Part shown: positions 21,377-64,000 of the stretch, piece after piece
Layout of the letters: each line of letters starts with the position of its first letter
Position numbering within the stretch: the first letter of the stretch is position 1
From: Hemibagrus wyckioides
Taxonomy: Eukaryota; Chordata; Actinopteri; Siluriformes; Bagridae
Reading direction: 5' to 3'
DNA: 64,000 nucleotides
NCBI RefSeq assembly: GCF_019097595.1
Contig: NC_080735.1
Location: 14,981,917 to 15,045,916, forward strand
Notes under the pieces: model-generated
Seen by the model: only the letters and a program-made list of their open reading frames with translations
What the model was told of the DNA's origin: nothing
The model's database searches: none
Translations under genes and position numbers: made by a program

Positions 21377-22615
21377 CACTATATTGCCAAAAGTATTCGC
21401 TCACCTGCCTTGACTTGCATATGAACTTAAGTGACATCCCATTCCTAATCCATAGGGTTCAATATGACGTTGGTCCACCCTTTGCAGCTATAACGGCTTC
21501 AACTCTTCTGGGAAGGCTGTCCACAAGGTTTAGGAGTGTGTTTATGGGAATTTTTGACCAGTCTTCCAGAAGCGCATTTGTGAGGTAACACACTGATGTT
21601 GGACGAGAAGGCCTGGCTCTCAGTCTCCGCTCTAATTCATCCCAAAGGTGTTCTATCGGGTTGAGGTCAGGACTCTGTGCAGGCCAGTCAAGTTCATCCA
21701 CACCGGACTCTGTCATCCATGTCTTTATGGACCTTGCTTTGTGCACTGGTGCACAGTCATGTTGGAAGAGGAAGGGGCCAGCTCCAAACTGTTCCCACAA
21801 AGTTGGGAGCATGGAATTGTCTTGGTATGCTGAAGCATTCAGAGTTCCTTTCACTGGAACTAAGGGGCCAAGCCCAGCTCCTGAAAAACAACCCCACACC
21901 ATAATCCCCCCTCCACCAAACTTTACACTTGGCACAATGCAGTCAGACAAGTACCGTTCTCCTGGCAACCGCCAAACCCAGACTCGTCCATCAGATTGCC
22001 AGATGGAGAAGCGCGATTCGTCACTCCAGAGAACGCGTCTCCACTGCTCTAGAGTCCAGTGGCGGCGTGCTTTACACCACTGCATCCGACGCTTTGCATT
22101 GCACTTGGTGATGTATGGCTTGGATGCAGCTGCTCGGCCATGGAAACCCATTCCATGAAGCTCTCTGCGCACTGTTCTTGAGCTAATCTGAAGGCCACAT
22201 GAAGTTTGGAGGTCTGTAGCGATTGACTCTGCAGAAAGTTGGCGACCTCTTCGCACTATGCGCCTCAGCATCCGCTGACCCCGCTCCGTCAGTTTACGTG
22301 GCCTACCACTCCGTGGCTGAGTTGCTGTCGTTCCCAAACACTTCCACGTTCTTATAATACAGCTGACAGTTGACTGTGGAATATTTAGGAGCGAGGAAAT
22401 TTCACGACTGGATTTGTTGCACAGGTGGCATCCTATCACAGTTCCACGCTGGAATTCACTGAGCTCCTGAGAGCGACCCATTCTTTCACAAATGTTTGAA
22501 AAAACAGTCTGCATGCCTAGGTGCTTGATTTTATACACCTGTGGCCATGGAAGTGATTGGAACACCTGATTCTGATTATTTGGATGGGTGAGCGAATACT
22601 TTTGGCAATATAGTG
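21377..22615 (-). mobile_element. Full-length Tc1-like transposon with perfect 29-base ends
   Basis: The 1239-base element is flanked by TA dinucleotides. Both ends read CACTATATTGCCAAAAGTAT inward and stay identical for about 29 bases (to CTCACC). It contains one intact transposase gene on the - strand. The identical ends and open frame suggest a young insertion. A fragment of the same family is fused to other sequence at about 45.96-46.13 kb. Confidence 0.9.
21459..22481 (-). CDS. Tc1-type DD34E transposase, intact, 340 aa
   Basis: Cut-and-paste transposase of the Tc1/mariner superfamily. I chose the start at [13 protein letters not shown], which gives the usual length of about 340 residues; an in-frame ATG 28 codons upstream is also possible. 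The N-terminal half has paired helix-turn-helix segments ([13 protein letters not shown]) joined by a GRPRKL AT-hook-like motif. The catalytic core shows LWSDESRF (first Asp), FQHDCAPVH (second Asp) and [17 protein letters not shown] (Glu). The C-terminus is AAKGGPTSY. There is no frameshift or stop, so the protein could be active. Confidence 0.9.
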
Positions 22616-24770
22616 TATAATTCCTAGCTTTGATAATTAAGAAAATTTAAGTATAAATTTTATACTTAACATTACCTACCAGTTAGGTTCTAGGTCAAAT
22701 GCAGGATCAAACACAAAACTGCTTACATACATATATACGGCAGGTTATACCTACTGTAGTATCTAACAAAAATTATGAGGTATATGACAGCCAACCTTTT
22801 TTAACCCTGTTAAAACAAATGGTAGCCAACAATACATTTATAATTGTATTTAAAATGCAATATGATACATTTCAGACTTTACACAGTACCAATGGATGCA
22901 TGTACAATAATGCATGCATTTTACTAATACACAATTTCAGTCACACTTCATTGCAAGTATTTTGTAAAAACAACATTTTGTATTTGCTTGAGATGTATAA
23001 AATGAAAGTATTTCTGAATATACAGTTGTCACAGCATTTGACTTATTGTAAGACTGTATATTTCATTCAAATAATAAGTTAAATGCACTCCTTACACCCA
23101 TTTTGACTGTACAGAGCAAGCCAAAAATGAATTCTCATGCTACAAATAGGATCAAGTCAATATGTAATAAATTAACATGTCTATTGCTTTCTGTTAATGA
23201 GTCAAAATACTTTATAACATTGTAACACTGTACAATAAGGTTCCCTTAACTGATATTCATCACGGTTCTTACTATGAATAGTGATTAACATTTAGTGTTA
23301 GTTCACTATCAGTAAAATTGTCAAGGTAACTAATACTTAATTAAAGCACAAGTAAAGCTTTTAATGCACCTGGAAACCATTCAATGGTTCATTCAACTAC
23401 ATTCAATATTTAGTATTACTTTAATTAATTTTTTTGGCAATTTACGAGTACTTGTTTTTGAATTAAATCGATTTAGTAAATGCAGGTGTATATAGTAATA
23501 TAAACATATTATTACAATATATTAATTGTAATATACCAATACATATATTAAATTACTTAATAATTTTGACATTTCATGACTTTCATTCATTCATGTTGAC
23601 ATTTATTCAGGTTAACTAATGCTATACGTAATTGTAGTTGAGGGAATCTTACTGTAAAGCATAACCGTTACATAGTATAGTATTACATGGTATAGTATTT
23701 TCTGAATATACATCGTCTTCAAAAGACATAAGCAGCTGGTAATGGGATAAAACATGAAAATATTTAGAGGAAAAAATTTCACATTAAATGGTTTGGATAT
23801 CAGTATTCATCAATATGTGATCTTCACTGGTGCAAAAAGTTTATTTTGGAATGAAATTCAGACCTGAGTTTTAGTTAAGTGGCATGTTGGTCTCTGTTCA
23901 CTTTGTATAATAGTTTTCTCAATGCTGTATGACTACAGCCTGAAAGTGGTACCAGTGGGATTTAGCCTCTAAATAAACAATGCAGCAGCACTTAAGTACT
24001 TTAATCACTGGAAAATTGAGTGAGATTATAAATTCTTGCTCTTTTCTTTTTAGAAGCAAGCAGCAAAACCCAACCTTTTAAAATTTTACTTGTATTTAGC
24101 AACACATTTCTTCTCCTTGTGACATCAGTAACATCAAGACTAACTCCTCACTGGAATAATGAAAATACAGTACCAAGGAAAAGGTGCTAGAATCGCTAAA
24201 CATCTCACAGATATTTCCCTATAGGCTTAGCCTATTCAATGTGTTTCATAGTTTACTTTTTTTTTACTAAAATAAACATATTTTCATCATATATACAGTC
24301 TCCTGCACTTTAGTGTTAAATAGGCTACAGATGTGAGGACGTTACTGAATGTAGACCACTATCTGAGAATATTTACTTGGACAGCAAAGGTTAAACCAAT
24401 CCAGAGGACCATATTTGTGAAAATGTTCCTGGAACTATATTTAATTGAGTAAAATAAGAAATTTGGAAAAAATTAATCAACATGCCTGGGTTTAAACAGA
24501 AACTGAACACTTTCTTATTTATTTTGTTTGGTCAGGCAACTGTATATTTTAGTGAACTTATATTAAGAAGGGCATTTAATCATTATAAAACTATTTCAGA
24601 TGTCTTTTGGGAAGTGGCTGAGAAATATATGGTATAAAATAGTATGGTGGGTCTCACAGGATCTGCTTAGTTCACTGTATTATTATTTTTTTTTTACAGA
24701 GAACATTAATGTGTGGATTGTTCAGCACCAAAAGTCACATTAGAAAAATAAAACAAAACTGTTTTCCATA
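22616..24770. other. Intergenic, between the Tc1 element and slc2a15
   Basis: AT-rich sequence with no supported gene. Its rightmost part should be the 3' UTR of slc2a15. Confidence 0.6.
24518..24523 (-). terminator. Candidate slc2a15 polyadenylation signal
   Basis: AATAAA on the - strand, about 250 bases after the slc2a15 stop codon. Confidence 0.4.
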
Positions 24771-38639: not shown

Positions 38640-40769
38640 TATCTGTTGAGCTTAAACTCCTTTTAGTATTGTTTCTAACAACATTCCCGGCGCGTACCGT
38701 GTGGAGCCCCGCCCCCACCTCAGCTACTTACAGCATACATACCACTTGTCAGACAAACCAAACCAGTTCTGAAACAGGTGAAAACCTGGCCAGCAGAAGC
38801 CATCTCTGCTCTTCAGGGCTGTTTTGAGTGCACTGACTAGGACATGTTTAGGGAGGCTGCAACCAACAGTGAAACCACAGACTTGGAGGAATACACGTCC
38901 TCAGTGACCAGCTACATTGGAAAGTTCATCGATGACGTAACTGTCTCTAAGTCCATCACCACATGCTTAAACCAGAAGCCATGGATGAACCCAAAGGTCT
39001 GTGTGTTGCTAAAATCCATAGACTCTGCTTTCAGAGCTGGAGACAAGGACGCCCTAAGAACAGCACGGGCCAAATTGTCTCGAGCCATCAAAGAGGCAAA
39101 GCCTGCACACTCCCAGAGAATTCACGGCCACTTCCAGAGCAGCGGTGACACTTGGCGCATGTGGCAAGGCATCCAGTCCATCAACAACTACAGGCTAGCT
39201 CCACCTGCCTGTGACAGTGATGCCTCCTTTCCAGATGGACTGAACAGCTTCTATGCTTGGTTTGAGGCACAAAATGACATGACAGTGAGGAAGGCTATCC
39301 CTCCTCCAGAGGACCAGGTACTCTGTCTCACTATGGCAGATGTGAGGAAAACTCTATGCAGAGTTAACCCACGGAAAGCTGCTGGACCAGACAACATTCC
39401 TCGCAAAGTGTAGAGGGAATGTGCAGAACAGCTTGTGGATGTCTTCACTGACATCTTCAATATCTCCCTGAGCAGCGCTGTCATCCCAATCTGCCTAAAG
39501 TCCACCACTATCATCCCCATGCCGAAGAAGTCTCCAGTGTCCTGTCTCAATGCCTACTGTCCTGTTGCACTCACACCCATCATCATGAAGTGCTTTGAGA
39601 GGCTTGTCATAAGAACCTGCTGCCACCATCACTAGACCCCATGCAGTTTGTGTATCATACAAATTGCTCCACAGATGCCATCAGCACAACCCTCCATCTG
39701 GCTGTCACACACCTGGATAATAAAGACATTTATGTACAAATGCTTTTCATAGACTTCAGTTCAGCATTCAACACAATCATTCCTCAGCACCTGATAGAGA
39801 AGCTGAGTCTGCTGGGCACCAACACCTCCCTCTGCAATTGGATCCTGGATTTCCTGACTGGGAGACCTCAGTCAGCCGGATCGTGAACAGCATCTTCAGC
39901 ACCACCACACTGAGCACTGGAGCTCCTCAGGGCTGTGTACTCAGTCCACTGCTGTTCACTCTGCTGACTCATGACTGTGCAGCAATGCACAGCTCCAACC
40001 ACATCATCAAGTTCGCCGATGACACGACCATGGTGGGTCTCATCAGCAAGAATGACGAGTCAGCGTACAGAGAGAAGGTACAGCGGCTAACAGCCTGGTG
40101 TAAAGCTAACAACCTGTATCTGAACGTGGAAAAAATAAAAGAGATGGTTGTTGACTTCAGGAGAGCACAGAATGCCCATTCTCCACTGAACATCGACGCG
40201 TCCAACATGGAGTTCATCAAGAGCACCAAATTCCTTGGTGTTCACCTGGTGGAGGACCTCACCTGGTCACTCAACACCAGCTCCATTACCAAGATAGACC
40301 AGCAGCATCTCTACTCCCTGCGGAGGCTGTGGAAGGCTCATCTTCCTCCTCCCATCCTGACCATCTTCTACAGAGGAACCATTGAGAGCATCCTGAGCAG
40401 CTTCATCACTGCCTGGTTTGGGAACTGCACCGTCTTGGATCACAAGACCCTGCAGCGGATAGTGAGGACAGCTGAACAGATCATCAGAGTCTGTCCTCCC
40501 TCTATTATAGACATTTACTCCACATGCTGCATCCGTAAAGCAAACAGTATTGTGGATGACCCCACACACCCCTCACGCACACTCTTCACCCTTCTGCCAT
40601 CTGGAAAAAGGTACTGAAGCATTCTCACCCACACAACCAGACTATTGAACAGTTTCTTCCCTCAGGCAATCAGGTGTCTCAACAGAGAACTGAACTGAGC
40701 TGGACATGGACACACACCCACACACAACAGAGAACTGTTTTCAACAGAGAACTTAACTGAGCTGGACAC

Positions 40770-44424: not shown

Positions 44425-44505
44425 CTCTGCCAAAACAACCCCTTGGAAGTACAAAGCTATTAATTTTCTCAGCCTTCCAGGGATTTCTTTAATGTAAAGA
44501 ATGAT
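44425..44505 (-). pseudogene. Galectin exon remnant
   Basis: On the - strand the block reads approximately KEIPGRLRKLIALYFQGVV. It aligns with the first galectin exon of the better copies (ESIPGGLRPGMALFFQGVV at 53.3-53.4 kb). Neighbouring galectin exons are not visible, so this is an isolated relic. Confidence 0.6.
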
Positions 44506-45963: not shown

Positions 45964-46127
45964 TGAGAGCCAGGCCTTCTCGTCCAACATCAGTGTGTGA
46001 CCTCACAAATGCACTTCTGGAAGAATGGTCAAAAATTCCCATAAACACACTCCTAAACCTTGTGGACAGCCTTCCCAGAAGAGCTGAAGCTGTTATAGCT
46101 GCAAAGGGTGGACCGACGTCATATTGA
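45963..46127 (+). mobile_element. Tc1 fragment, same family as the intact copy at 21.4 kb
   Basis: The + strand encodes [20 protein letters not shown] and on through [20 protein letters not shown], ending KGGPTSY and stop. It is nearly identical to the C-terminus of the 340-residue transposase. The rest of the element and its left end are missing, replaced by the TA run. Confidence 0.85.
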
Positions 46128-46305
46128 ATATTACCCATTAGTCCACTGTTGCAGTGAGTCACTGGCTTCACTCACTCCCACATTACTAACAGCTCTGTAT
46201 CAAACCCAATATTGTTCTGTTGACTGTAGTCCAGAAGTTTCTATGACTGTCCATTTCCCAACATCAGTTAAAAGGTGTCATCCTTTACTCAACTGTGAAG
46301 TGTAA
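46128..46305 (-). pseudogene. Remnant of the stonustoxin-like gene 3' end (FN3 region)
   Basis: Aligns with 54211-54450, the 3' part of the large stonustoxin-like exon, in the same orientation. Both carry CATTACTAACAGCTCTGTAT and the following Gln-Tyr-rich FN3 codons, but this copy has internal deletions and substitutions. It shows that at least one more gene copy once lay here. Confidence 0.7.
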
Positions 46306-46429
46306 TGAATAATCTGGAATGAAGGTATACAGCATGCCGTGCAGTGATCTTCCCGAGGCAGCTCTTGAGCTATTGCCATGCAGCTGGAACCGATGACCAT
46401 GTCAAAATAATAACATAAAATGTATTAAG

Positions 46430-47885: not shown

Positions 47886-49030
47886 GTTGAGGCTGAGCTC
47901 TGATTGTCTTGTTTTAAATTTTCTTGAGGTACAGCACCAGACCCACCCACTTTTTTTGTTAGCGAATCAATGTTGTTTTTATATTATTTGGTCTCATGTG
48001 ATTGGACCAATCTCATCGAGTCTATAGTCATCGAGTATACTATAAATAAGTTCTAGCACATAATTCACCTGAGTGATCTGGCTGATGTATAAGCATGTGA
48101 TTATGATCAGCTTTCAGTTTATCTGGTCTTAATATAATATGGTAGCTTTAAGAGAGAAGACACATTAATGACATTATTTTGGCCACAAAAAAAGTTCAGA
48201 CAATACAGAACCTTAATTTTTATCACTATTTATTTATTGATTTTAACCAGTACATTTCTATCTATTTAATCAAGAAGTAAATTAAAAGTTTCTTAATTTG
48301 TTATAACAACAAAGCACAAAACACACAATAATGCAAGAGGTTTAATTAGTCAATTTAGTGGATAATGGATAATGGATTTTTTTATTTTTATTTTTTTAGA
48401 AATGATTAATGAGCACTTTCTAATGTTGTATTTGCGTCAGTAAAGGAGGAGCCGAAATAAGAAAATCAAATAAAAATACTGTGTCAACTTCAGCTTTGTA
48501 TTTGGTGTAAGTATGTCATGTGCTGAAACCTGTTTGGTTTTGGAGATTTGCAGAGTGCATTCAAGACTTTTAACTAGTGAACAGATAATGCAAATTACCT
48601 GTATCATTGACTGTAATTAACGTACAATAAAACTGTAGTAAAGAATATATAGTATGCATTTCTAACGATAATAAGCAACAAAAATCTGATAAGAATGCTC
48701 ATCAGTAAAAAAAAACATTACGGGTTAATGAAAAGACAAAAAACACCCATAAACAGTTTTAATTCTGATATAATTGACCAGAATATAACAAAATAAATGT
48801 CATTGGTATTGGAGAAGATTTGAATCCTCAAATATTGGCAGGACTGATCATGCTGACTTTCAGATTAACATCATCCACCTATTGAAACAAAAAAACATCT
48901 CTTAACATTCCTGTTTGTTATAATGCAAATCTAAAACTTATGTAAATTCTATATTTCATAAATTGAGACTTGATCGATCTTGGTTAATTACTGATGTTAC
49001 CAAGCCTGTATAACTGAGTTCACAATATTC
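47200..49030. repeat. Segmental duplicate, copy 2
   Basis: Partner of 36.48-38.59 kb (see there), lacking the SINE. Contains a GT microsatellite (about 47857-47883) and the terminal-exon-like block at about 48835-48890 (VDDVNLKVSMISPANI, stop, on the - strand, with a TTTCAATAG acceptor). Confidence 0.8.
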
Positions 49031-49039
49031 TGGGGTTTG

Positions 49040-50144
49040 GACTGTTTGTTTAGTTCTATCTGTCGGTTTTGCTTTAAATGTTTAGTACAGTTTCTAATTA
49101 CTGCTCACCACCTGATGGACTTTGTGTGTTAGTCAGCACAAGCTATCTCTGCCCTTCAGGACTGTTTTGAATGCAATGACTATCACTACACGCTCCAGTC
49201 AAAAGCTGTGGATGACTACAAAGGTGCATGTACTGCTGAAGACCAGAGACTTTGTCTTCAGAGCAGATGACAAGGTGACCCTAAGAACAGCAAGAGCCAA
49301 ACTGTCCCGAGCCATCAGAGAGGCAAAGTACACACACGCCCAGAGAACCCACAGGAACTTTAAAGAAGGGCATCCAGGCAATCACTAACTACAGTACAAC
49401 TTCATCTAACTACAGGACAACTCAGTCAGTCTGGAACCACAACACAAACACCACCATACTGAGCACTGGGGCGCCTCAGGGTCATATGCTCAGTCCACTG
49501 CTGTTCACTCATGACGGACGACATCATTAATTTTCAGATGCCAAGGTGGGTCTCTTCAACAAGTCAACATACAGAGGGGAGCTGCAACAGCTAACAGCCT
49601 GGTGTAGAGCCAGCAAGCGGTCTCTGAACTTTGACAAAACAAAAGGAATAGCTGTCGGCTTCAGGATAGAACAGAGCATCTCTTCTCTGATAAACATTGA
49701 CTGGTCCTCCATGGAGATCATCAGAAGCACCAAATTCCTCTGTGAAAACCCATCTCCCACCCCCTGTCCTTACAACGTTTTACATAGTGACTACTGAGAG
49801 CATCCTGAGCAGCTACATCACTGTCTGCTTTGGGAATTGCACTGTCTGGGATTGTATGACCTTGCAGAAGATAGTGAGCACAGCAGAGATGATCATCCTC
49901 TATCACAGACATTTATTTTATTTTATTTTATTTTATTTTATTTCTCTGTCTTGGAGCAAATTGTTTTGTCTGTCTGCACTGTCTCTTATTTTGCACTGTT
50001 TGTGCAAGATTGCACACAAGCACTGTATGTGGAAATTTTTTGGTTCTTAATTCTTTGTTGTTTATGTAGCTCTGTGTTCTTTAATGTAGCACCAGGGTCT
50101 AGTAGGGACACTGTTTCATTTCACTACAGTATGTACTGCATCAG
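49040..50144 (+). mobile_element. Internally deleted LINE fragment, downstream of galectin copy B
   Basis: Same LINE family as 38.6-41.0 kb. It keeps [20 protein letters not shown] and [15 protein letters not shown] (49190-49340), then jumps across most of the reverse transcriptase to STGAPQ-like and STYRGELQQLTAWC segments, and ends in the common 3' UTR. A (TTTTA)n run lies at about 49914-49941. Its 3' tail abuts the last galectin codons on the other strand. Confidence 0.8.
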
Positions 50145-51382
50145 CTATATACATAAATGACCTACTTTAGTAATGGCAATGGTGTCCATGAAGACGTCTC
50201 CCCTAATATCAAGTGTAGTCACTGTGTCCATTGGGATACGGTGCTGGAACGTGCAGTACTCCAGGCCATTCACCATCACCTGAACAAATGAAGTATCAGC
50301 TTATTGAATCCAAATGATTAAAGTCTTTACCCTCACATTTATTTTCTCCATAATATCACACCTCATAGCATTCTTGTTTAATAACCAAGATGATATCAAA
50401 AATTGCTCCTTGGACAAATGGGTTTCCTGATGCCCACTGTGGATGCTCCCATGACCCATTCCTGCAGCTGTCAAGGACCACACAGTCCACCCGGGGGTTG
50501 AAGTGAAGAGCAATGTCATGAAGGTACTTTGGCGTGGTCTGCAAATTTACTTCAAAGCTGAAAGAAATTGTTTAACATTTAATTGACTATACCAGATTAG
50601 AGTGAGAATTTTTTAACTAACCTATTACATGTTGCCTTTCATTCAAAATGTTATGAAATGAAAATACATTTTTCATACCGTGTAAAATCTTTTGGAACAA
50701 GTCCTTGGAAGAACAAAGCCATACCAGGTCTTAAGCCTCCAGGGATTGATTCCAAATATGGTTTGTTCTGTTGTGGTTAAGCATCATTCATGTTATAATG
50801 ATACAATTGTAATCAAGTGGTTATTTTAAAATGCATAAACCTGCAATCTTTTGGATTGTTCATTCATTTTGAAAATGAAAAGAAAATGTTACTCACAGGT
50901 TTGCAGACTGGATGTGGCCCACCAGACTGGATGTCAGAAAAAATGAAAGAACATATGAAGAACATTGAAAGAATATTTATGAAACCTGTTTGCTCCTCAT
51001 TTATGACAAACCAGAGTGCTGTAAAGTTGACATTGACTTACAAAGGGAAAACTGTAATAGAAAAAACTTGCAAAACATCTTGCTACTTGATTTGCACATT
51101 TCTTTTTATATTAAGTCTAACATTTACCTGTAAATATCAATGTAAATGTAAATGTTAATGAATATAGAATTTATTTGTTTTATTCCATGTGTGTAGTGCG
51201 ATTTAGAGATTTGTATTGAAACATTATTACTTACAGGACTGTTCAATATTTTAGTCCTTAGTTTATTAATGAGCATGGGTGTGGAGAATTTCTGTGGGAA
51301 AAGAAATTATGTACAACATAAATAAATGAAAATACATGTCTACATATAACTCACAACTAATTGCCATTAGTTTATATGTTTA

Positions 51383-51427
<45 letters not shown>

Positions 51428-51645
51428 TTTACTTCTGTAGAAAAAAGACAAATATGTGTAGTAGAACATCTAAACTGTATTGATATACAATGAATGAAAA
51501 ACTAAACTAAAATAAAAAATTCTTAGGAAAATTTCATTTTACATTTAGCTATTATATAATAACTATATATGATAACATATAATGTTAACTGACCCATTGG
51601 TCCACTGTCACAATGAACTTCCCACTGATGGTGAAGGGGACAGAA
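50145..51645 (-). pseudogene. Galectin unit, copy B: linker and CRD exons kept, stonustoxin-like body lost
   Basis: Exons (-): 51590-51645 (tail of the large exon, ending FIVTVDQWVS), 51235-51291 (FSTPMLINKLRTKIL), 50897-50926 (SGGPHPVCKP), 50679-50767 (ESIPGGLRPGMALFFQGLV), 50362-50557 (ALHFNPRV and NGSWEH) and 50145-50279 (VMVNGLEYC). All borders are AG/GT and no frame is broken in the galectin part. The sugar-binding set is HFNPR, VVLDS and NGSWE; copy A has Asn in place of that Asp. The large upstream exon is cut off at about 51645 and replaced by LINE sequence. Without its normal 5' end the copy is probably not expressed as the family gene, though it could serve as extra 3' exons. An alternative last exon may lie at 48.83 kb. 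Confidence 0.7.
51381..51427. repeat. (ATT)n microsatellite
   Basis: About 15 ATT units, present in copy B but largely absent at the matching place in copy A (about 54026). Confidence 0.95.
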
Positions 51646-52792
51646 TTGAGTTCACACAATTCTGGGGTTTGGACAGTTTGTTTAGTTCTATCTATCGAGT
51701 TTGCTTTAAACGTTTAGTACAGTTTCTAATTACTGCTCACCACCTGATGGACTTTGTGTGTTAGTCATTGCATTCAAAACAGTCCTGAAGGGCAGAGATA
51801 GCTTGTGCTGACTATCACTACACGCTCCAATCAAAAGCTGTGGATGACTACAAAGGTGCATGTACTGCTGAAGACCAGAGACTTTGTCTTCAGAGCAGAT
51901 GACAAGGTGGCCCTAAGAACAGCAAGAGCCAAACTGTCCCGACCCATCAGAGAGGCAAAGTACACACACACCCAGAGAATCCACAGGAACTATAAAGAAG
52001 GGCATCCAGGCAATCACTAACTACAGTACAACTTCATCTAACTACAGGACAACTCAGTCAGTCTGGAATCACAACACAAACACCACCATACTGAGCACTG
52101 GGTTGCCTCAGGGTCATATGCTCAGTCCACTGCTGTTCACTCATGATGGACGACATCATTAATTTTGCAGATGCCAAGGTGGGTCTCTTCAACAAGAAAA
52201 ATGAGTCAACATACAGAGGGGAGCTGCAACAGCTAACAGCCTGGTATAGAGCCAGCAAGCGGTCTCTGAACTTTGACAAAACAAAAGGAATCGCTGTCGG
52301 CTTCAGGATAGAACAGAACATCTCTTCTCTGATAAACATTGACTGGTCCTCCATGGAGATCATCAAAGCACCAAATTCCTCTGTGAAAGCCCATCTCCCA
52401 CCCCCTGTCCTTACAATGTTTTACATAGTGACTACTGAGAGCATCCTGAGCAGCTACATCACTGTCTGCTTTGGGAATTGCACTGTCTGGGATCGTAAGA
52501 CCTTGCAGAAGATAGTGAGCACAGATGAGAAGATCATCCTCTATCACAGACATTTATTTTATTTTATTTTATTTTATTTCTCTGTCTTGGAGCAAATTGT
52601 TTTGTCTGTCTGCACTGTCTCTTAGTTTGCACTGTTTGTGCAAGATTGCACACAAGCACTGTATGTGGATATGGAAATGTAATTTTTTTGGTTCTTAATT
52701 CTTTGTTGTTTATGTAGCTCTGTGTTCTTTAATGTAGCACCAGGGTCTAGTAGGGACACTGTTTCATTTCACTACAGTATGTACTGCATCAG
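51646..52792 (+). mobile_element. Internally deleted LINE fragment, downstream of galectin copy A
   Basis: Tandem partner of 49040-50144, with the same internal deletions. It carries a 53-base inversion at 51762-51814 relative to the other copy and keeps the frame NKKNESTYRGELQQLTAWYR. Confidence 0.8.
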
Positions 52793-53933
52793 CTATATAC
52801 ATAAATGACCTACTTCAGTAATGGTAAAGGTGTTCATGAAGACCTCTCCCCTAATATCAAGTGTAGTCACTGTGTCCATTGGGATACGGTGCTGGAACGT
52901 GCAGTACTCCAGGCCATTCACCATCACCTGAACAAATGAAGTATCAGCTTATTGAATCCAAATGATTAAAGTCTTTACCCTCTCATTTATTTTCTCCATA
53001 ATATCACACCTCATAGCGTTCTTGTTTAATAACCAAGATGATATCAAAAGCTGCTCCTTGGACAAATGGGTTTCCTGATGCCCACTCTTGATGCTCCCAT
53101 GACCCATTCCTGTAGCTGTTCAGGACCACAGAGTCCACACGGGGGTTGAAGTGAAGAGCAATTTCATGAAGGTACTTTGGCGTGGTCTGCAAATTTATTT
53201 CAAAGCTGAAAGAAATTGTTTAACATTTAATTGACTATACCAGATTAGAGTGAGAATTTTTTAACTAACCTATTACATGTTGCCTTTCATTCAAAATGTT
53301 ATGAAATGAAAATACATTTTTCATACCGTGTAAAATCTTTTGGAACAACCCCTTGGAAGAACAAAGCCATACCAGGTCTTAAGCCTCCAGGGATTGATTC
53401 CAAATATGGTTTGTTCTGTTGTGGTTAAGCATCATTCATGTTATAATGATACAATTGTAATCAAGTGGTTATTTTAAAATGCATAAACCTGCAATCTTTT
53501 GGATTGTTCATTCATTTTGAAAATGACAAGAAAATGTTACTCACAGGTTTGCAGACTGGATGTGGCCCATCAGACTGGATGTCAGAAAAAATGAAAGAAC
53601 ATATGAAGAACATTGAAAGAATATTCATAAAACCTGTTTGTTCCTCATTTATGACAAACCAGAGTGCTGTAAAGTTGACATTGACTTACAAAGGGAAAAC
53701 TGTAATAGTAAAAACTTGCAAGACATCTTGCTACTTGATTTGCACAATTCTTTTTATATTAAGTCTAACATTTACCTGTAAATATCAATGTAAATGTTAA
53801 TGAATATAGAATTTATTTGTTTTATTCCATGTGTGTAGTGCGATTTAGAGATTTGTTCTGAACCATTATTACTTACAGGACGGTTCAATATTTTTGTCCT
53901 TAGTTTATTAATGAGCATGGGTGTGGAGAAGTT
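52793..53933 (-). CDS. Galectin carbohydrate-recognition domain module, copy A (likely 3' part of the stonustoxin-like gene)
   Basis: Galectins bind beta-galactosides. Exons (-): 53877-53933 (FSTPMLINKLRTKIL linker), 53545-53574 (SDGPHPVCKP linker), 53327-53415 (ESIPGGLRPGMALFFQGVV), 53010-53205 and 52793-52927. The 196-base exon carries the binding motifs ALHFNPRVD, VVLNS and NGSWEH; the last exon has VMVNGLEYC and TLDIRGEV. The small exons are phase 0-0 and the galectin exons join in phase with AG/GT borders. No stop interrupts it, and the CRD is about 125 residues, the normal size. The only ATG ahead of the CRD in frame is inside the linker, which follows a good splice acceptor. I infer that it continues the gene to its right (-), but an independent galectin gene is possible. 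The final six codons, VGHLCI and stop, come from the adjoining LINE tail. Confidence 0.75.
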
Positions 53934-54205
53934 CTGTGGGAAAAGAAATTATGTACATCATAAATAAATGAAAATACATGTCTACATATAGCTCACAACT
54001 AATTACTATTTAGTTTATATGTTTAATTATTATTCTTTTTTTTTTTTACTTCTGTAGAAAAAAAAGGCAAATATGTGTAGTAGAACATCTAAACTTCATT
54101 GTTATACAAGGAATGAAAAACTAAACTAAAATAAAAAAAATTCTTAGGAAAATTTCATTTTACATTTAGCTATTATATAATAACTATATATAATAATATA
54201 TAATC

Positions 54206-56218
54206 TTAACTGACCCATTGGTCCACTGTCACAATGAGCTTCCCACGAAAGGTGAAGGGGACAGAGTCGCTGGCTTCACTTACTCCCACATTACTAACAG
54301 CTCTGTATCGAACCCAGTATTGTTCTGTTGCCTGTAGTCCAGTCAGTGTGAAGGTGTTTTGTGTATCTGAAGTGTCTATGACTGTCCATTTCTCAACATC
54401 TTCTGCTGAATCAGTTGAAGGTGTCATCCTGTACTCAACTCTGAAGCGTACTGTTTCTCCAGTTGGGGATTTTGAAAGCTTCAGGGTGACTTTCCCATCA
54501 CCGGTCTCCACCACAGGTTTGGGAGGTTTGGACACAGGCTGGAACTTAGGATCTGTTAGACTGCCATTCTGATATAGCCGGATGGAGATTCCTGGATTGT
54601 TGGAGTCAGGTATCGATGCAATGATGAATTTGAATTTCTTCTCATTTTTATTGGCCTCTAAAAAGGTTGTAAATAGAGAAACATTCTGCCTCATCCTTGC
54701 AGAGTTGTCAGGAGAAGTAAACCAAGGTTGTGCTTTTTGGAGAATTAAATCTCTCTTGCTTGTTTGCCCCGACATTGTAAATCCTTCAGAATTCTCACTG
54801 TCTTGTAGAGCTGCTAGGTAGGAATCTTCATCATTTAGAGAAGTAAATGACAAACATACCACTGCATCAACATCAGGATGAAAACAGATGGAGTTGAGTG
54901 ACCCTGATGATTTTACTATGAGGTCCTTCAGTCCACTGGTATAGGAGCTCAATATATTTAATTCAGATGTAATGCCATCTAACCATTTGTTCATGTTGCT
55001 TGCATTGAAGGGTGATGTGTAATGGATTTTCAGGATGTCCTCCAGTGCCTTGCCCTCTTGTGTCCCACCACGAATAGCTGGCAGCACTCTGAACAGTGCA
55101 TTCTTGAACGAACTTGTATAATTCTTATGTAATGCCTGAAATTTTAGCAACCTGTCTTTTAGGTCAGGAAAATCCTCTGTTATTTGTCTTTTGATCAAAT
55201 CATTGCATACTCTCTCCATGTCATTGATCTCTTCCAGCACAGTTTCTGTTTTATACATCACGCTCAAACTGATTTCTCTCACCAACTTTGCAGCCTTATC
55301 ATCCAAAAGATTGAGAGGATACAGCCACACGGTCAGAGGCACACCTTTACCTTGTTGCTTCATCAGAGCAGGCACCTTCTTGTACACTTCCAGGGCTTCT
55401 TTGTATGTTGTGGGGTTTTCATTAAGTTCAATGTCACCATAAAATGTGACACTAATATTTTCTGACATTTTTTTTTCATTTTCATTCATAGTTAGGGATG
55501 CTTGCCCCTCAATAGATATGGTAGGGATCTTTTTAACCATTGCATGAAGGTTTCCTTCAATTTCCTGTTTGTTCTCATTTTCTGCACTGGTATAATCAAA
55601 GACCATGAAAACCTGAGCTCCATACAGTACAGCTGTAACTACATGCGTGGCTGTTTTCTGGTCAAATACTTGTGGATAGGTGATATTACCAAGCTCCTTC
55701 ATAGTGAGCTGTTCAAATTTTGTTGTCTGGCTGTACTGCATAGTAACTCTGCACTGACGTGTTGAGGATTTGGTATCTAGAAGGTACTTGGCCGATCCTC
55801 CAACCTCCACTAATCCACTTAGAAAACTGGCTTTAAGGGAAGCATTTATATCTAGAAGGTTTGCCTTGTTACTGAGACTGTCAGAGGCAGCAAAATTCAG
55901 ATGGGTTTTAGGCTTCTGATGCACATCAAGGTCATCACGCAATGCATTCTTATCCCATAAAGTAACACCTGAAACAGGACAGTGATCATGAGGGTCAAGT
56001 AATTTCTGATATTTCATATTGCATACAGTATGAACATAGCATGGTTTATTATTGATTTTAGTATCATTTTTCACCACCGTCATTAGACTGCAAATGAGTA
56101 ATTAAATTATTATGATGTAAACTGCACCTGGAATAAAGGAGTCCCTCCGGCAATCATATAACATGCCTGGATACAGAGTTCTTCCGAGGGCAGCTATTTC
56201 CATGTATATGGAATCCAT
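54206..56218 (-). CDS. Stonustoxin/neoverrucotoxin-like protein (SNTX-MACPF family) with FN3 domain
   Basis: Member of the stonustoxin-like family, whose fish venom members form pores; most fish homologues are not venom and their role is unknown. Exon 1 is 56128-56218, from MDSIYMEIAALGRTLYPGML to FIP. Exon 2 starts at 55968 (TTTCAG acceptor, GVTLWDKN); the open frame above it (to 56083) is intronic. Order: MACPF-like SNTX domain (about residues 1-260, with SLKASFLSGLVEVGGSAKYL); a helical focal-adhesion-targeting-like domain (about 265-385); a thioredoxin-like domain (about 390-505, FKFIIASIPDSNNPG); and FN3 (about 515-605, VRFRVEYRM and YWVRYRAVSNVGVSEASD). There is no PRY-SPRY domain, unlike the venom subunits. 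The frame is intact. It ends at a TAA (54206), or is spliced at GTCAGT (54209-54214) into the galectin exons. Confidence 0.85.
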
Positions 56219-56806
56219 TTCTGCAAGACTTCTGCAAGAGAAAAGAAAAGACTGGAAAATAAGAAAAGAAGAGAAAATGAGAATATTTGACAATGCATTT
56301 ATGCATTGAAACAATTATGTCAATAATGATATTTTGTTGTCTGCTTTATTTCCTCCATGATTATTGCACGTCGAATTTGTCGTTAATTTGTAACCATATT
56401 TAACTCTTGTCTTCCCTGGCCTTGTTGGCTGGAGCACTGAGTTTATGTTCATGACTGGATTTACATTTATGGTGAGACTTTGGTAGCCTTTGGTAGCCTT
56501 AAACCCTAGCTTTTTGGGTTCTTTGTGTTCTGGTTGGTGTATTCTTTATTCCATTAATCTTTATTAAAGATGTTTTAGCCCTTGCATCTCTTTCCTGAGA
56601 GTCCTAGTCTGAATATCGCCCTAGTTACCTAGTAACCTTATATCACCTCAGAGTGTCTCTTGGCCAATCCAGTCTATAAAATATATGAAATATTTTTCAG
56701 CTCTTAATAAAATTGGCTGGCACAAGCTATATTTTCCATAAAGAATTAATTAATAATAGCTATTTTACACATGTAAATCAAATAATTTGTGTGCACAAAC
56801 ACTTAC

Positions 56807-56970
56807 CTTTCACAACGATGTCTCAACCTGTCTGTCTTCTTGTGAATGCGGCTGTAAAAAAAATTCTGATAGAAGTAGCAGCGCAGTGTTGATTGGGGTG
56901 CTCTGATGGCAGCAGTCACGTAGTCAGTCAGGCCCACCCAGTCAGTTGCTAGATACAGCAGAGACTGCTT
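56807..56970 (-). promoter_or_regulatory. 5' UTR exon of the stonustoxin-like gene
   Basis: A GAAAG/GTAAGT donor (56801-56806 intronic) ends a non-coding exon on the - strand. The next acceptor, TTCTCTTGCAG at about 56231-56241, leads directly to the first coding exon. The upstream limit is inferred from the TATA box at 56995. The same donor is copied at 62241-62246. Confidence 0.55.
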
Positions 56971-56994
56971 TGATTACAGCGATTGCTGGATGAC

Positions 56995-57000
56995 TTTATA
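56995..57000 (-). promoter_or_regulatory. TATA box of the stonustoxin-like gene
   Basis: TATAAA on the - strand (GTATAAAGT), about 190 bases upstream of the 5' UTR donor. A GCAGAAAGTAGAAGTG stretch further upstream (about 57045-57062) is loosely IRF-site-like. Confidence 0.5.
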
Positions 57001-57309
57001 CATGCCTTTGCCCATATTAGGTTCTTCCTGGCATGTCATATGACACTTCTACTTTCTGCGTGATAGCACTTGCTGAATGAAACGTCTCTGCACTCCTGCT
57101 CCCCCTCCCCCTTTACACCGAACACATTTCACAGAGGGTCACCGAAGTTTAGTTGTACGTTGAAACTATAATGAAACATGTATAATGAAACAGAGCAACT
57201 TACTAAAGTATGTGTCAAAAAGACATCATGTGCAACCGCAGAAGAAAGATAATTCCAGTAAAGATAATTTTCAGGAGCCATCAATCTGGAGTAGTAAGGA
57301 GCTGACTAT

Positions 57310-57797
57310 TACCTCATTCAACTATTGCTCTCACTTTAAGTTATGCTGTCATAGCTAGTTTTGCTATAGAGTTATAGAGTCCCTGCCTGCACTTTTCACA
57401 TAAACTATATTGTCTCTAAACATCACATGATCACAAGCATACTTAATTTCTTTCTCTCTCTCTTTCTGTCTTTCTCTGTCAAGCTATACATCCAACTCCT
57501 GAACTTCCAGTGTTCTGAGTTTCCAGTGTGACCACTGGCTCTACCCCTAGTTGGAGTCTCATCATTTGCTGGTGCTCACTGATGCTGTGGATGGGAGTTT
57601 TTCCCTGACACCATCGCCCCAGGCTTGCTCATTAGGGATAAAATAAGGATAAAATAGTAACTTTAATTTAAACTTATATAACTTAAATTTTATATATATA
57701 TATACATACATCTGTCTCTCTACTTTTGTAAAGCTGCTTTGAGACAATGTCCATTGTAAAGGGTTCTATAGAAATAAATTGAATTGAATTGAATTGT
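57310..57797 (+). mobile_element. L2 LINE 3' end
   Basis: Typical fish L2 3' UTR: AAGCTGCTTTGAGACAATGT near the end and a terminal (ATTGA)n run (about 57777-57795). The same 3' UTR, without the terminal repeat, occurs at 63420-63711. Confidence 0.8.
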
Positions 57798-60899: not shown

Positions 60900-61805
60900 G
60901 CTTAAAAAATGCTTAAAAATGCTTTACTCCCCTTCAAGAGCCTGATCTAATTTCACTAATTCCACATTTTTCCTTAAACAGATATTGCCAGTAGCTACCG
61001 CACCCCTTCTAAAAATGATAAATTCTATAGCACTGGCTATGTGCCTAAGTCTTTTAAGCTAGCAGTTATCAAACCCCTGATTAAAAAAAACGGACCTCGA
61101 CCCCTGTCAGCTATTCAACTATAGGCCAATATCAAACATGCCCTTTATCTCCAAGATCCTAGAGAAGGCAGTTATGTTTACACTTACATAGGAAGAAAAT
61201 TCATGAAATGTATCAGTCAGGATTTAGACCTCACCATAGCACAGAGACAGCACTGGTTAAAGTGGTCAATGACTTGTTACTGGCTTTTTATCAGGGTTGT
61301 GTCTCATTACTGGTGTTACTCAAACTTAGTGTAGCGTTTGACACCACTGACCACACTATTCTACTTGATAGGCTAGAACATGTTGGTGTTAAAGGAACAG
61401 CCCTCTCCTGGCTCAGGTCTTATTTGACTGATCGTTATCAGTTTGTAGATCTAGATGGTGACTTCTTTATGCATACCAAGGTTATGTTTGGTGTTCCACA
61501 AAGTTCTGTCTTAGGCCCATTGCCCTTGGTGCAATTATTTGTAAAAATGGTATTAGCTTCCACTGTTATGCTGATGACACACAGCGATATGTTTCAGCTA
61601 AGTCAGATGAGAGATACCAGCTTATTAAGATTGAAGAATGTGTAAAGGACATTGGACAGTGGATGCTTACTAACTTCCTCCTGCTTAACTCTGACAAGAC
61701 ATAGATGCTTGTACTAGGACCACATGCAGCTAGAAGTAAGCTTTCTGATTACAGAGTAACTGAGGATGGTCTTTCTGTTTCATCTTGGTGTGATTCTTTT
61801 TTTCA
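60900..61805 (+). mobile_element. L2 LINE, 5' part of a split copy
   Basis: L2 reverse transcriptase, frameshifted. It has [20 protein letters not shown] (about 61120), [20 protein letters not shown] (about 61210), a mutated [16 protein letters not shown] (about 61330), [17 protein letters not shown] (about 61475) and a VLGPHAARSKLSDYR region (61705 on). The A-D-D box is frameshifted (CYADD-like codons near 61568). It breaks off at about 61805. Confidence 0.85.
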
Positions 61806-62214
61806 GATCCTCGGAGAGTTCTTTGCCATGAGGTGCCATGTTGAACTTCCAGTGACCAGTATGAGAGAGTGTGAGAGCGATAACACCAAATTTAACACAC
61901 CTGCTCCCCATTCACACCTGAGACCTTGTAACACTAACAAGTCACATGACACCAGGGAGGGTAAATGGCTAATTAGGCCTAATTTGGATATTTCCACTTA
62001 GGGGTGTACTCACTTTTGTTGCCAACGGTTTAGACATTAATGGCTGTGTGTTGAGTTATTTTGAGGGGACAGCAAATTTACACTGTTATACAGGCTGTAC
62101 ACTCACTACTTTACATTGTAGCAGAGTGTCATTTCTTCAGTGTTGTCACATGAAAAGATATAATAAAATATTTACAAAAATGTGAGGGGTGTACTGACTT
62201 TTGTGAGATACTGT
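61806..62214 (+). mobile_element. Tc1 3' fragment of a second family
   Basis: Encodes a typical Tc1 C-terminal tail (LGEFFAMRCHVELPVTSM) followed by the GGGGTGTACTCACTTTTGTT block and an end reading CTTTTGTGAGATACTGTA. Only the right end is present. It lies between L2 and the copied promoter. Confidence 0.75.
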
Positions 62215-62680
62215 AAATCAAATAATTTGTGTGCACAAACACTTACCTTTCACAACGCCCTCTCAACCTGTCTGTCTTCTTGTGAATTCGGCTGTAAACA
62301 GTTCTTCAGAAACAGCGCAAATTGCTTTGATTACAGTGATCTTTGCATGTCTTTGGATGCCTTTGCATGCCTTTGCATGCCTTTGTCCATATTAGGTTTT
62401 TCTTGGCATGTCTTACGATACTTGTACTTTCTGCATGAGAACACTTGCTGAATGAAACGTCTCTGCCCTCATGCTCCCCTTCCCCCTCCACACCAAGCAC
62501 ATTTCACAAAAGACCACCGAAGTTTAGTTGTACGTTAAACTAAAATGAAACAGAGCAACTTGCTAAAGTATGTGTGAAAAAGACATCGTGCAGCCGCAGA
62601 AGAAAGATAATTTTCAGGAGCCATCAATCTCGAGCAGTAAGGAGCTGACTATTACCTCATTCACCTATTACTCCATCACA
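62215..62680 (-). repeat. Copy of the stonustoxin-like gene promoter and 5' UTR exon
   Basis: Matches 56770-57300, starting AATCAAATAATTTGTGTGCA. The exon donor GTAAGT is kept (62241-62246), but the TATA region is replaced by ATGCCTTTGC units repeated about three times (about 62355-62385). No coding exon follows on its downstream side, where a Tc1 fragment lies. Confidence 0.75.
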
Positions 62681-62769
62681 CTTGCTATTACTATTACTCT
62701 GGTGCACACTTTAACATCGCTTTTGAGGATTCTGAACCTAAATTATTTGTTAGAACTATAAAAACTAGT

Positions 62770-63538
62770 TCATGCTTTTGTTACTTCTAGTTGGATTATT
62801 GTAATGCCTTACTGTCTGGATGTTTCAGTAGGAGCATAAACAATCTCCAGTTAGTCCAGAACACAGCAGCTAGAGTCCTAACCAGAACCAGAAGATATGA
62901 ACACATCCCTCCAATCTTATCCATACTGCACTGGCTCCCAGCCAAATTTCACATTGATTCTAAAATACTTTTACTAACCTATAAAACACTAAATGGTCTC
63001 AGGCCATAGTACCTGAGTGATCTTTTGGTTATTTATGATCTGCAATGCCTACATCGATCAAAGGGTGCAGGTTATTTGGTAGTACCTTAAGTAGCAAAGG
63101 ATATAGCAGGGGGCAGAGCTTTTTCTTACAAAGCCACAATTCCACAGTTATGGAACAGCCTTTCAATTAGTGTTCGGGATTCAGACACAGTCTCAATGTT
63201 TAAGTCTAGTCTAAAGACACATTTGTTAAGTCAAGCTTTTAATATATAGTTTTTTTTTAGGTAAAGGAGCAGATCTAGAAGGTTCATGGGAATAGAGTGT
63301 TTGGTGTACTGGGATGTTTGGATGCTGTTGCCTTTACCACCCTCACAAGTCGCTCAGGTTTGCTGACTGTGAAATGGTTGAATGCTTTATGTCCCAGGAA
63401 GCCTTCATGTCTGTTACCTTCTCGCTCTCCCTTTTAGTTATGCTGTCATAGCTAGTCTTGCCAGAGTCCCTGCCTGTACGTTTCACATAAACTATATTGT
63501 CTCTAAACATCACATGATCACAAGCATACTTAATTTCT

Positions 63539-63582
<44 letters not shown>

Positions 63583-63711
63583 GTTTTTCTCTGTCAAGCA
63601 TACATTCAACTCCCAAACTCCCAGTGTTCTGAGTTTCCAGTGTGACCACTGGCGCTACCCCTAGTCAGAGTCTCCTCATTTACTGGTGCTCACTGACGCT
63701 GTGGATGGGAG
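62770..63711 (+). mobile_element. L2 LINE, 3' part
   Basis: Frame 62791-63009 carries DYCNALLSGCFSRSINNLQL, AARVLTRTRRYEHIPPILS and LHWLPAKFHID, the C-terminal region of L2 polymerase. A decayed RAFSYKATIPQLWNSLSISV-like stretch and the 3' UTR follow. It ends abruptly in galectin exon sequence. Confidence 0.85.
63541..63591. repeat. (CT)n microsatellite
   Basis: CT run in the L2 3' UTR; the matching place in the 57.4 kb copy has only a short CT/TTTCT tract. Confidence 0.9.
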
Positions 63712-64000
63712 TTAAGGACCACAGAGTCTTTGTCTCTTTTGAGACTGAGAGCAATATCATGAAGGTACCTTGGCCCAGTCTGCAAATTTATTTCAAAGCT
63801 GAAAGAAATCATTTTTAACATTTAATTTACTGTAACTGTAACAGATAGTGAGAAATTTCAAGCTATTCTATTCAATATTGCCTTTCATTCAAACTGTCTT
63901 GAAATGAATATGCATTTAGCATACCATTCACAATCTGATGGAACAACCACTTGGAAGAACAAAGCCACATCAGGTCTCAAGCCTCCAGGGATTGATCCTA
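63712..64000 (-). pseudogene. Galectin unit, copy C (truncated, runs off the window)
   Basis: Exon 63925-64000 or beyond (-) reads SIPGGLRPDVALFFQVVV. The next, 63712-63798, begins FEINLQTGPRYLHDIALSLK and stops where L2 sequence begins. The HFNPR motif is replaced by SLKRD, and the rest of the CRD is missing. It is therefore a dead CRD, or an allele-like relic, at the start of a third unit. Confidence 0.75.

Follow-up and report, generated by a model that had tools for sequence, protein, structure and literature searches.

The window, by which we mean the whole 64-kb stretch of DNA that was analysed, carries on its minus strand a stonustoxin-like (SNTX-type) coding sequence and, beyond a gap of 281 nt, a short series of exons that ends in a galectin domain. 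This agrees with an earlier note on this DNA, which had described, on the same strand, an SNTX exon and then, within about 280 bases, two phase-0 linkers and a galectin. The features are as follows:

56128-56218, minus strand: exon 1 of the stonustoxin-like gene, with ATG at 56218, 30 codons plus 1 nt (91 nt) and the donor CAG/GTGCAG
54215-55968, minus strand: large exon, with MACPF_SNTX, Stonustoxin_helical, Thioredoxin_11 and fn3 domains (Pfam)
54206-54214, minus strand: candidate donor GTCAGT, then directly TAA; either a spliced border or the end of the reading frame
53877-53933, minus strand: linker exon A, 57 nt, phase 0/0, acceptor 7.86 bits, donor 2.92 bits
53545-53574, minus strand: linker exon B, 30 nt, phase 0/0
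53327-53415, minus strand: galectin exon 1, 89 nt, placed by sequence and phase, with no Pfam match by itself
53010-53205, minus strand: galectin exon 2, with the sugar-contact strands (PF00337, E 2e-14; Galectin-9 3wv6, E 2.3e-12)
52793-52927, minus strand: galectin exon 3, with the stop TAG at 52795-52793 (PF00337, E 1.6e-05)

We examined the stonustoxin-type part and found that exon 1 joins the large exon in phase 1 with an open frame, and that the large exon is open across 584 complete codons. The Pfam profiles MACPF_SNTX (PF24674, 29.0 bits against a cut-off of 27), Stonustoxin_helical (PF21109, E 7.2e-27), Thioredoxin_11 (PF18078, E 3e-30) and fn3 (27.4 bits against a cut-off of 25) all match within it, and the features of the SNTX family, namely the MACPF/CDC-type, helical (FAT) and thioredoxin-like domains, are all present. 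Among solved structures, stonustoxin (4wvm) matches the large exon with both its chain A (alpha, E 3.6e-82) and its chain B (beta, E 6.8e-78). Residues 21-475 of the large exon pair with residues 51-505 of chain A (455 residues on each side), and the FN3 domain starts at about residue 487, past the ends of the stretches matched to stonustoxin (475 and 485). The open frame, the four Pfam domains and the 4wvm match thus bear out the description of a complete SNTX-type exon with FN3. The C-terminal PRY-SPRY of the venom subunits was not found in the large exon by Pfam, and three B30.2 motifs, searched in six frames of the whole window with no positive control, gave no match.

After the FN3 domain the large exon reads TGG and then GTCAGTTAA, which can be taken either as a donor (TGG/GTCAGT, at 54214) or as the last codons ahead of a stop (TAA at 54208-54206). 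When splice sites were scored with vertebrate base frequencies, this donor reached 0.68 bits, and a GT that scores equally well or better occurs once per 221 nt. Since two of the galectin acceptors score -0.94 and -0.82 bits on the same scale, the scale is a rough one. Ten GT sites within 56218-54215 outscore the donor at 54214, eight of them in 56218-54600 and the others at 54501 (1.17 bits) and 54283 (GGA/GTAAGT, 1.96 bits); the latter likewise has phase 0, which would allow an in-frame join with a shortened FN3. The usable donor that had been claimed just before the stop of the large exon is therefore present as a GT in phase 0, but it is weak and not the best in its exon. Hence, it is the acceptor of linker A, and not the donor, that carries the argument for a fusion.

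This acceptor lies in the top 0.36% of 4196 minus-strand AG sites (one per 4267 nt), and the donor of the same exon in the top 2.75% of 3787 minus-strand GT sites. An acceptor of this strength indicates that linker A is probably an internal exon, which needs a donor upstream. Past the TAA and before linker A, the best donor is at 53996 (0.41 bits), and its intron would be just 63 nt long. The AT-rich gap between the large exon and linker A is similar in size to the introns that separate the linkers and galectin exons from one another (82-302 nt). We also asked how often such exons arise by chance. In the 797 nt that separate the large exon from the galectin, the two linkers are the only internal exons that are open, keep the frame and pass the thresholds. 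Of 1000 dinucleotide-shuffled sequences, none had two or more open internal exons under strict thresholds (3 and 2.5 bits), 26 had them under lax thresholds (0 and 0), and 1 had at least one such exon at a threshold of 7, which in the real sequence leaves linker A alone. As the thresholds were picked after the scores had been seen, the result under the lax thresholds is the safer guide.

The domain by which the galectin family is recognised, the galactoside-binding lectin domain (PF00337), is found in galectin exons 2 and 3 taken alone (53.6 and 24.8 bits, respectively, against a cut-off of 22.1), and the best solved-structure match of exon 2 is galectin-9 (3wv6). The linker and galectin exons have GT/AG borders and phases that join in frame, and both linker lengths are divisible by three. 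With open exons, GT/AG borders and phase 0 at the joins from stonustoxin to linker and from linker to galectin, the statement that every junction keeps the frame holds.

In summary, the strong acceptor of linker A, the lack of a good other donor in the gap and the phase-0 joins make a single spliced gene the better reading. On the layout of the exons, we consider it likely that 56218-52793 on the minus strand is one gene of seven coding exons, encoding a stonustoxin-like protein with a galectin tail. Its transcript would be spliced at 54214, joining the stonustoxin exon to linker A, and its product, for which about 780 residues had been proposed and the summed exon lengths give about 783, would comprise in order a MACPF-type, a helical, a thioredoxin-like and an FN3 domain, a two-exon linker and a C-terminal galectin. 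The galectin would thereby occupy the C-terminal place that PRY-SPRY has in the venom stonustoxins. This would probably be a new domain combination within a known family. None of 5 viral and 44 prokaryote stretches that fitted a pattern encoded a relative, and, among the papers listed on stonustoxin, verrucotoxin and SNTX/MACPF with galectin, titles and the first parts of abstracts mention no such fusion. The weak donor, the better in-phase GT at 54283, sequences resembling polyadenylation signals, an ATG in linker A and the lack of purifying selection between the two galectin copies described below count against the fusion.

In an alternative reading, two neighbouring genes lie here: a stonustoxin-like gene that lacks a third exon and stops at the TAA (54206), and a small galectin gene of its own, which would begin either at the ATG of linker A (53918) or in an unseen 5' exon. 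This seems to us rather unlikely, although several observations favour it. Ahead of linker A come two hexamers that resemble polyadenylation signals, AGTAAA 155 nt and ATTAAA 178 nt past the TAA, and the ATG of linker A has an in-frame stop upstream, at 53951. A tandem copy described below (unit B) carries the entire galectin part together with 353 nt before its first linker, which leaves room for a small promoter. On the other hand, the very strong acceptor of linker A would be superfluous for a first exon, and in a gap of just 281 nt a 5' exon would find no good donor. A precedent for a stonustoxin-like gene that ends in its second exon comes from the stonefish, where, according to the section of the source on sntx genes, eight sntx genes in a cluster consist of three exons each, whereas four sntx-like genes on chromosome 6 have lost the third, the second running to a stop, with full-length Iso-seq transcripts (PMC10566576). 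The layout here is compatible with that of the three-exon genes, exon sizes being left out of the comparison, and, as in the chromosome-6 genes, its second exon can reach a stop; the same section leaves galectin exons unmentioned, unlike the gene here (PMC10566576). The proposal that a galectin replaces SPRY within one gene is supported by the acceptor, by the phases and by the absence of a visible PRY/SPRY motif, and is weakened by the stonefish sntx-like genes that end in exon 2.

The galectin part has been duplicated in tandem, and further, damaged copies lie elsewhere in the window:

51645-54265, minus strand: tandem unit A, with 17 codons of the end of the large exon, the linkers, the galectin and the 3' flank
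49012-51644, minus strand: tandem unit B, with linkers at 51291-51235 and 50926-50897 and galectin exons at 50767-50679, 50557-50362 and 50279-50145
63705-63995, minus strand: galectin copy C (the third), 82-83% identical over 249 nt and broken in galectin exon 2
46152-46362, minus strand: stonustoxin-like relic, with pieces of exon 1 and FN3 and an in-frame stop, the large exon being mostly gone
44434-44496, minus strand: galectin exon 1-like fragment (tblastn E 1.8e-05)

Units A and B abut, are 93.5% identical and measure about 2.6 kb each. As the upstream border of the duplication lies inside the stonustoxin exon, unit B carries 17 codons of it, the linkers and the galectin, and no stonustoxin start. 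Its pieces of galectin exons 2 and 3 match PF00337 (E 2.3e-12 and 1.8e-06, respectively), while the exon-2 piece of copy C has no Pfam match, and copy C meets the edge of the window before any linkers. Two more galectin copies had been said to keep the linkers, but only unit B does so; good linker matches are limited to units A and B, and a third linker-bearing member was rejected on that ground. We also looked for an exon formed by the stonustoxin tail of unit B: its frame is open from 51713, the best acceptor before the tail is a weak one (-1.43 bits), and one inside it scores 2.52 bits. In the 3' flank of the units, a 61-nt stretch (49126-49186 versus 51758-51818) is inverted in one copy (97% complementary). 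The relic and the galectin fragment suggest that the array formerly held more such copies.

The match of the relic to the end of the large exon, which stops at ...AATGGGT, was considered as support for the donor and rejected, because sequence that the relic's surroundings have in common with 21458-21596 begins about 5 nt later, which makes the loss of similarity uninformative. A 395-residue stop-to-stop frame at 21462-22646 (minus strand) has Tc1/Sleeping Beauty-type transposase domains (PF25787, PF01498 and PF13358), and its end recurs beside the relic at 45990-46128 (95.7% over 139 nt). Reverse-transcriptase similarity was found in an open frame at 39724-40614 (plus strand; PF00078, 50.3 bits) and at 61163-61642 (plus strand; PF00078, 29.2 bits, slightly below the cut-off of 29.6), and both are probably retroelement remnants. 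Repeated blocks at 56772-57599 and 62212-63713, about 5.4-6.1 kb apart and 78-95% identical, lie upstream of the stonustoxin-like gene and beside the broken galectin copy, and may reflect either an earlier duplication of the locus or a repeat common to both places. Over the whole 64 kb, Rfam gave no match at gathering scores, and NCBIfam gave two weak matches, neither near its cut-off.

The presence of a second galectin part raises the reading that one stonustoxin exon has alternative ends, stopping at its own TAA, splicing to galectin A or skipping to galectin B. This is a form of the single spliced gene and is compatible with it, and we regard it as improbable in this specific shape. In its favour, unit B retains the letters at its splice borders and stays open across 168 linker and galectin codons, both tails have phase-0 linkers with lengths that are multiples of three, and the differences between the A and B exons are mostly amino-acid changes. 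There were 22 amino-acid-changing and 5 silent changes between the coding exons of A and B (pN 0.051, pS 0.041, ratio 1.24; binomial p 0.82 against no selection), so that no sign of purifying selection is seen between the two, and these changes would also fit a drifting duplicate. Among the changes that the partial copy C polarises, read by eye off an alignment, B had acquired 4 amino-acid replacements and 1 silent one and A 1 of each kind, counts too small to test, and this fits B having drifted after losing its start.

Positive selection on the galectin exons was also considered. The first comparisons looked strong, with 19/423 differing positions in the galectin exons versus 2/333 in introns 3-5 (p 0.001) and 23/510 in the linker and galectin exons versus 11/635 in introns 2-5 (p 0.008); other sets gave p 0.60 (exons versus intron 1), p 0.62 (exons versus the uncorrected flank) and p 0.12 (galectin exon 2 versus intron 5). 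The 61-nt inverted stretch had inflated the divergence of the flank, and the corrected comparison sets it aside. After this correction, the exons differed at 23/505 positions and the non-coding sequence at 56/1971 (p 0.064), or at 27/556 when the stonustoxin tail was added to the exons (p 0.022), and the p-values were 0.088 for the galectin exons alone, 0.097 for the exons versus introns 1-5 and 0.099 for the exons versus the flank. Positive selection is thus not proven, and a faster change in exons than in non-coding sequence is no more than suggestive, which limits the support that divergence lends to alternative tails.

A decaying locus, in which the galectin part and perhaps the entire array would be pseudogenes, as the broken copies at 63.7-64.0, 46.2-46.4 and 44.4 kb and the absence of purifying selection on galectins A and B might indicate, is very improbable in view of a main gene that is open throughout its 584 large-exon codons and its linker and galectin exons and has GT/AG borders.

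Returning to the single spliced gene, we examined whether its galectin could bind sugar. The contacts of the galectin site are seven residues, which we take to be H44, N46, R48, N61, W68, E71 and R73 in galectin-1 numbering. In the alignment to galectin-9, copy A keeps five of these (H44, N46, R48, N61 and W68) and has Q in place of E71 and W in place of R73, whereas copy B keeps four, with N61 changed to D, E71 to P and R73 to W, so that neither has the full set. Galactose contacts may persist in copy A, the usual galectin specificity is unlikely there, and a protein ligand for the tail is possible. The description as a glycan-directed protein of a pore-forming family, which had been applied to this gene, exceeds the evidence, as two of the seven sugar-contact residues are changed in copy A, pore formation is no more than putative, and stonefish have sntx-like genes that stop in exon 2.

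To our knowledge, neither stonustoxins nor galectins have a signal peptide. The joined product may be an immune or barrier protein that is cytosolic or released by an unconventional route. Its galectin tail would recognise a ligand, either a glycan or, given the altered sugar site, a protein, and would bring the MACPF part to a membrane, on which it would then act. That the protein works as such a galectin-aimed, membrane-acting effector is a tentative proposal, which we think has a modest chance of being right. Galectin and PRY-SPRY belong to the same jelly-roll superfamily. In a bolder version, PRY-SPRY would have been swapped for a galectin, the tail then duplicated, and one body spliced to either of two galectins, which differ mostly in amino-acid changes, to give a membrane-acting immune protein with a modular and fast-evolving recognition end, a scenario that we consider a long shot.

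Among known systems, the stonustoxin and neoverrucotoxin cytolysins (4wvm) have the same order of MACPF/CDC, helical (FAT) and thioredoxin-like domains as the gene here, which has an additional FN3 behind the thioredoxin-like domain and, with the proposed splicing, a galectin tail in place of PRY-SPRY. The nearest working analogy for a pore-forming domain linked to a lectin domain is the lamprey protein LPFP, a member of the natterin family with a jacalin-like lectin and an aerolysin-like domain (PMC5605768). LPFP differs in having an aerolysin pore fold and a jacalin-like lectin, in contrast to the MACPF and galectin found here. Zebrafish Dln1 is a relative of lamprey LPFP. Astrotactin-2 resembles the present gene in having a perforin-like domain, then FN3 and then a further C-terminal module, and it has been suggested not to form pores (PMC4892435), so pore formation should not be assumed here either; it differs in being a neural membrane protein with an annexin-like end. 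The tandem-repeat galectins (galectin-9, -8 and -4) count among the solved galectins closest to exon 2, whereas here there is a single domain, changed at the E71 and R73 positions and adjoining a stonustoxin-like part. The congerins I and II of the conger eel are a galectin pair said to evolve at an accelerated rate (PMC2843614); they are free-standing, and accelerated change in the galectins here is suggestive only. In the catfish, the discussion of a study on resistance to enteric septicaemia includes a table with a 'stonustoxin subunit alpha-like' row (PMC3890627), which offers a lead to a candidate counterpart of the gene here.

If the galectin tail is real, the C-terminal module of the SNTX-like proteins would be exchangeable, and some members of the family would recognise glycans or other ligands. 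Ligand recognition by an SNTX-galectin protein would then parallel that of the lectin-aerolysin proteins, and a role in defence would become testable.
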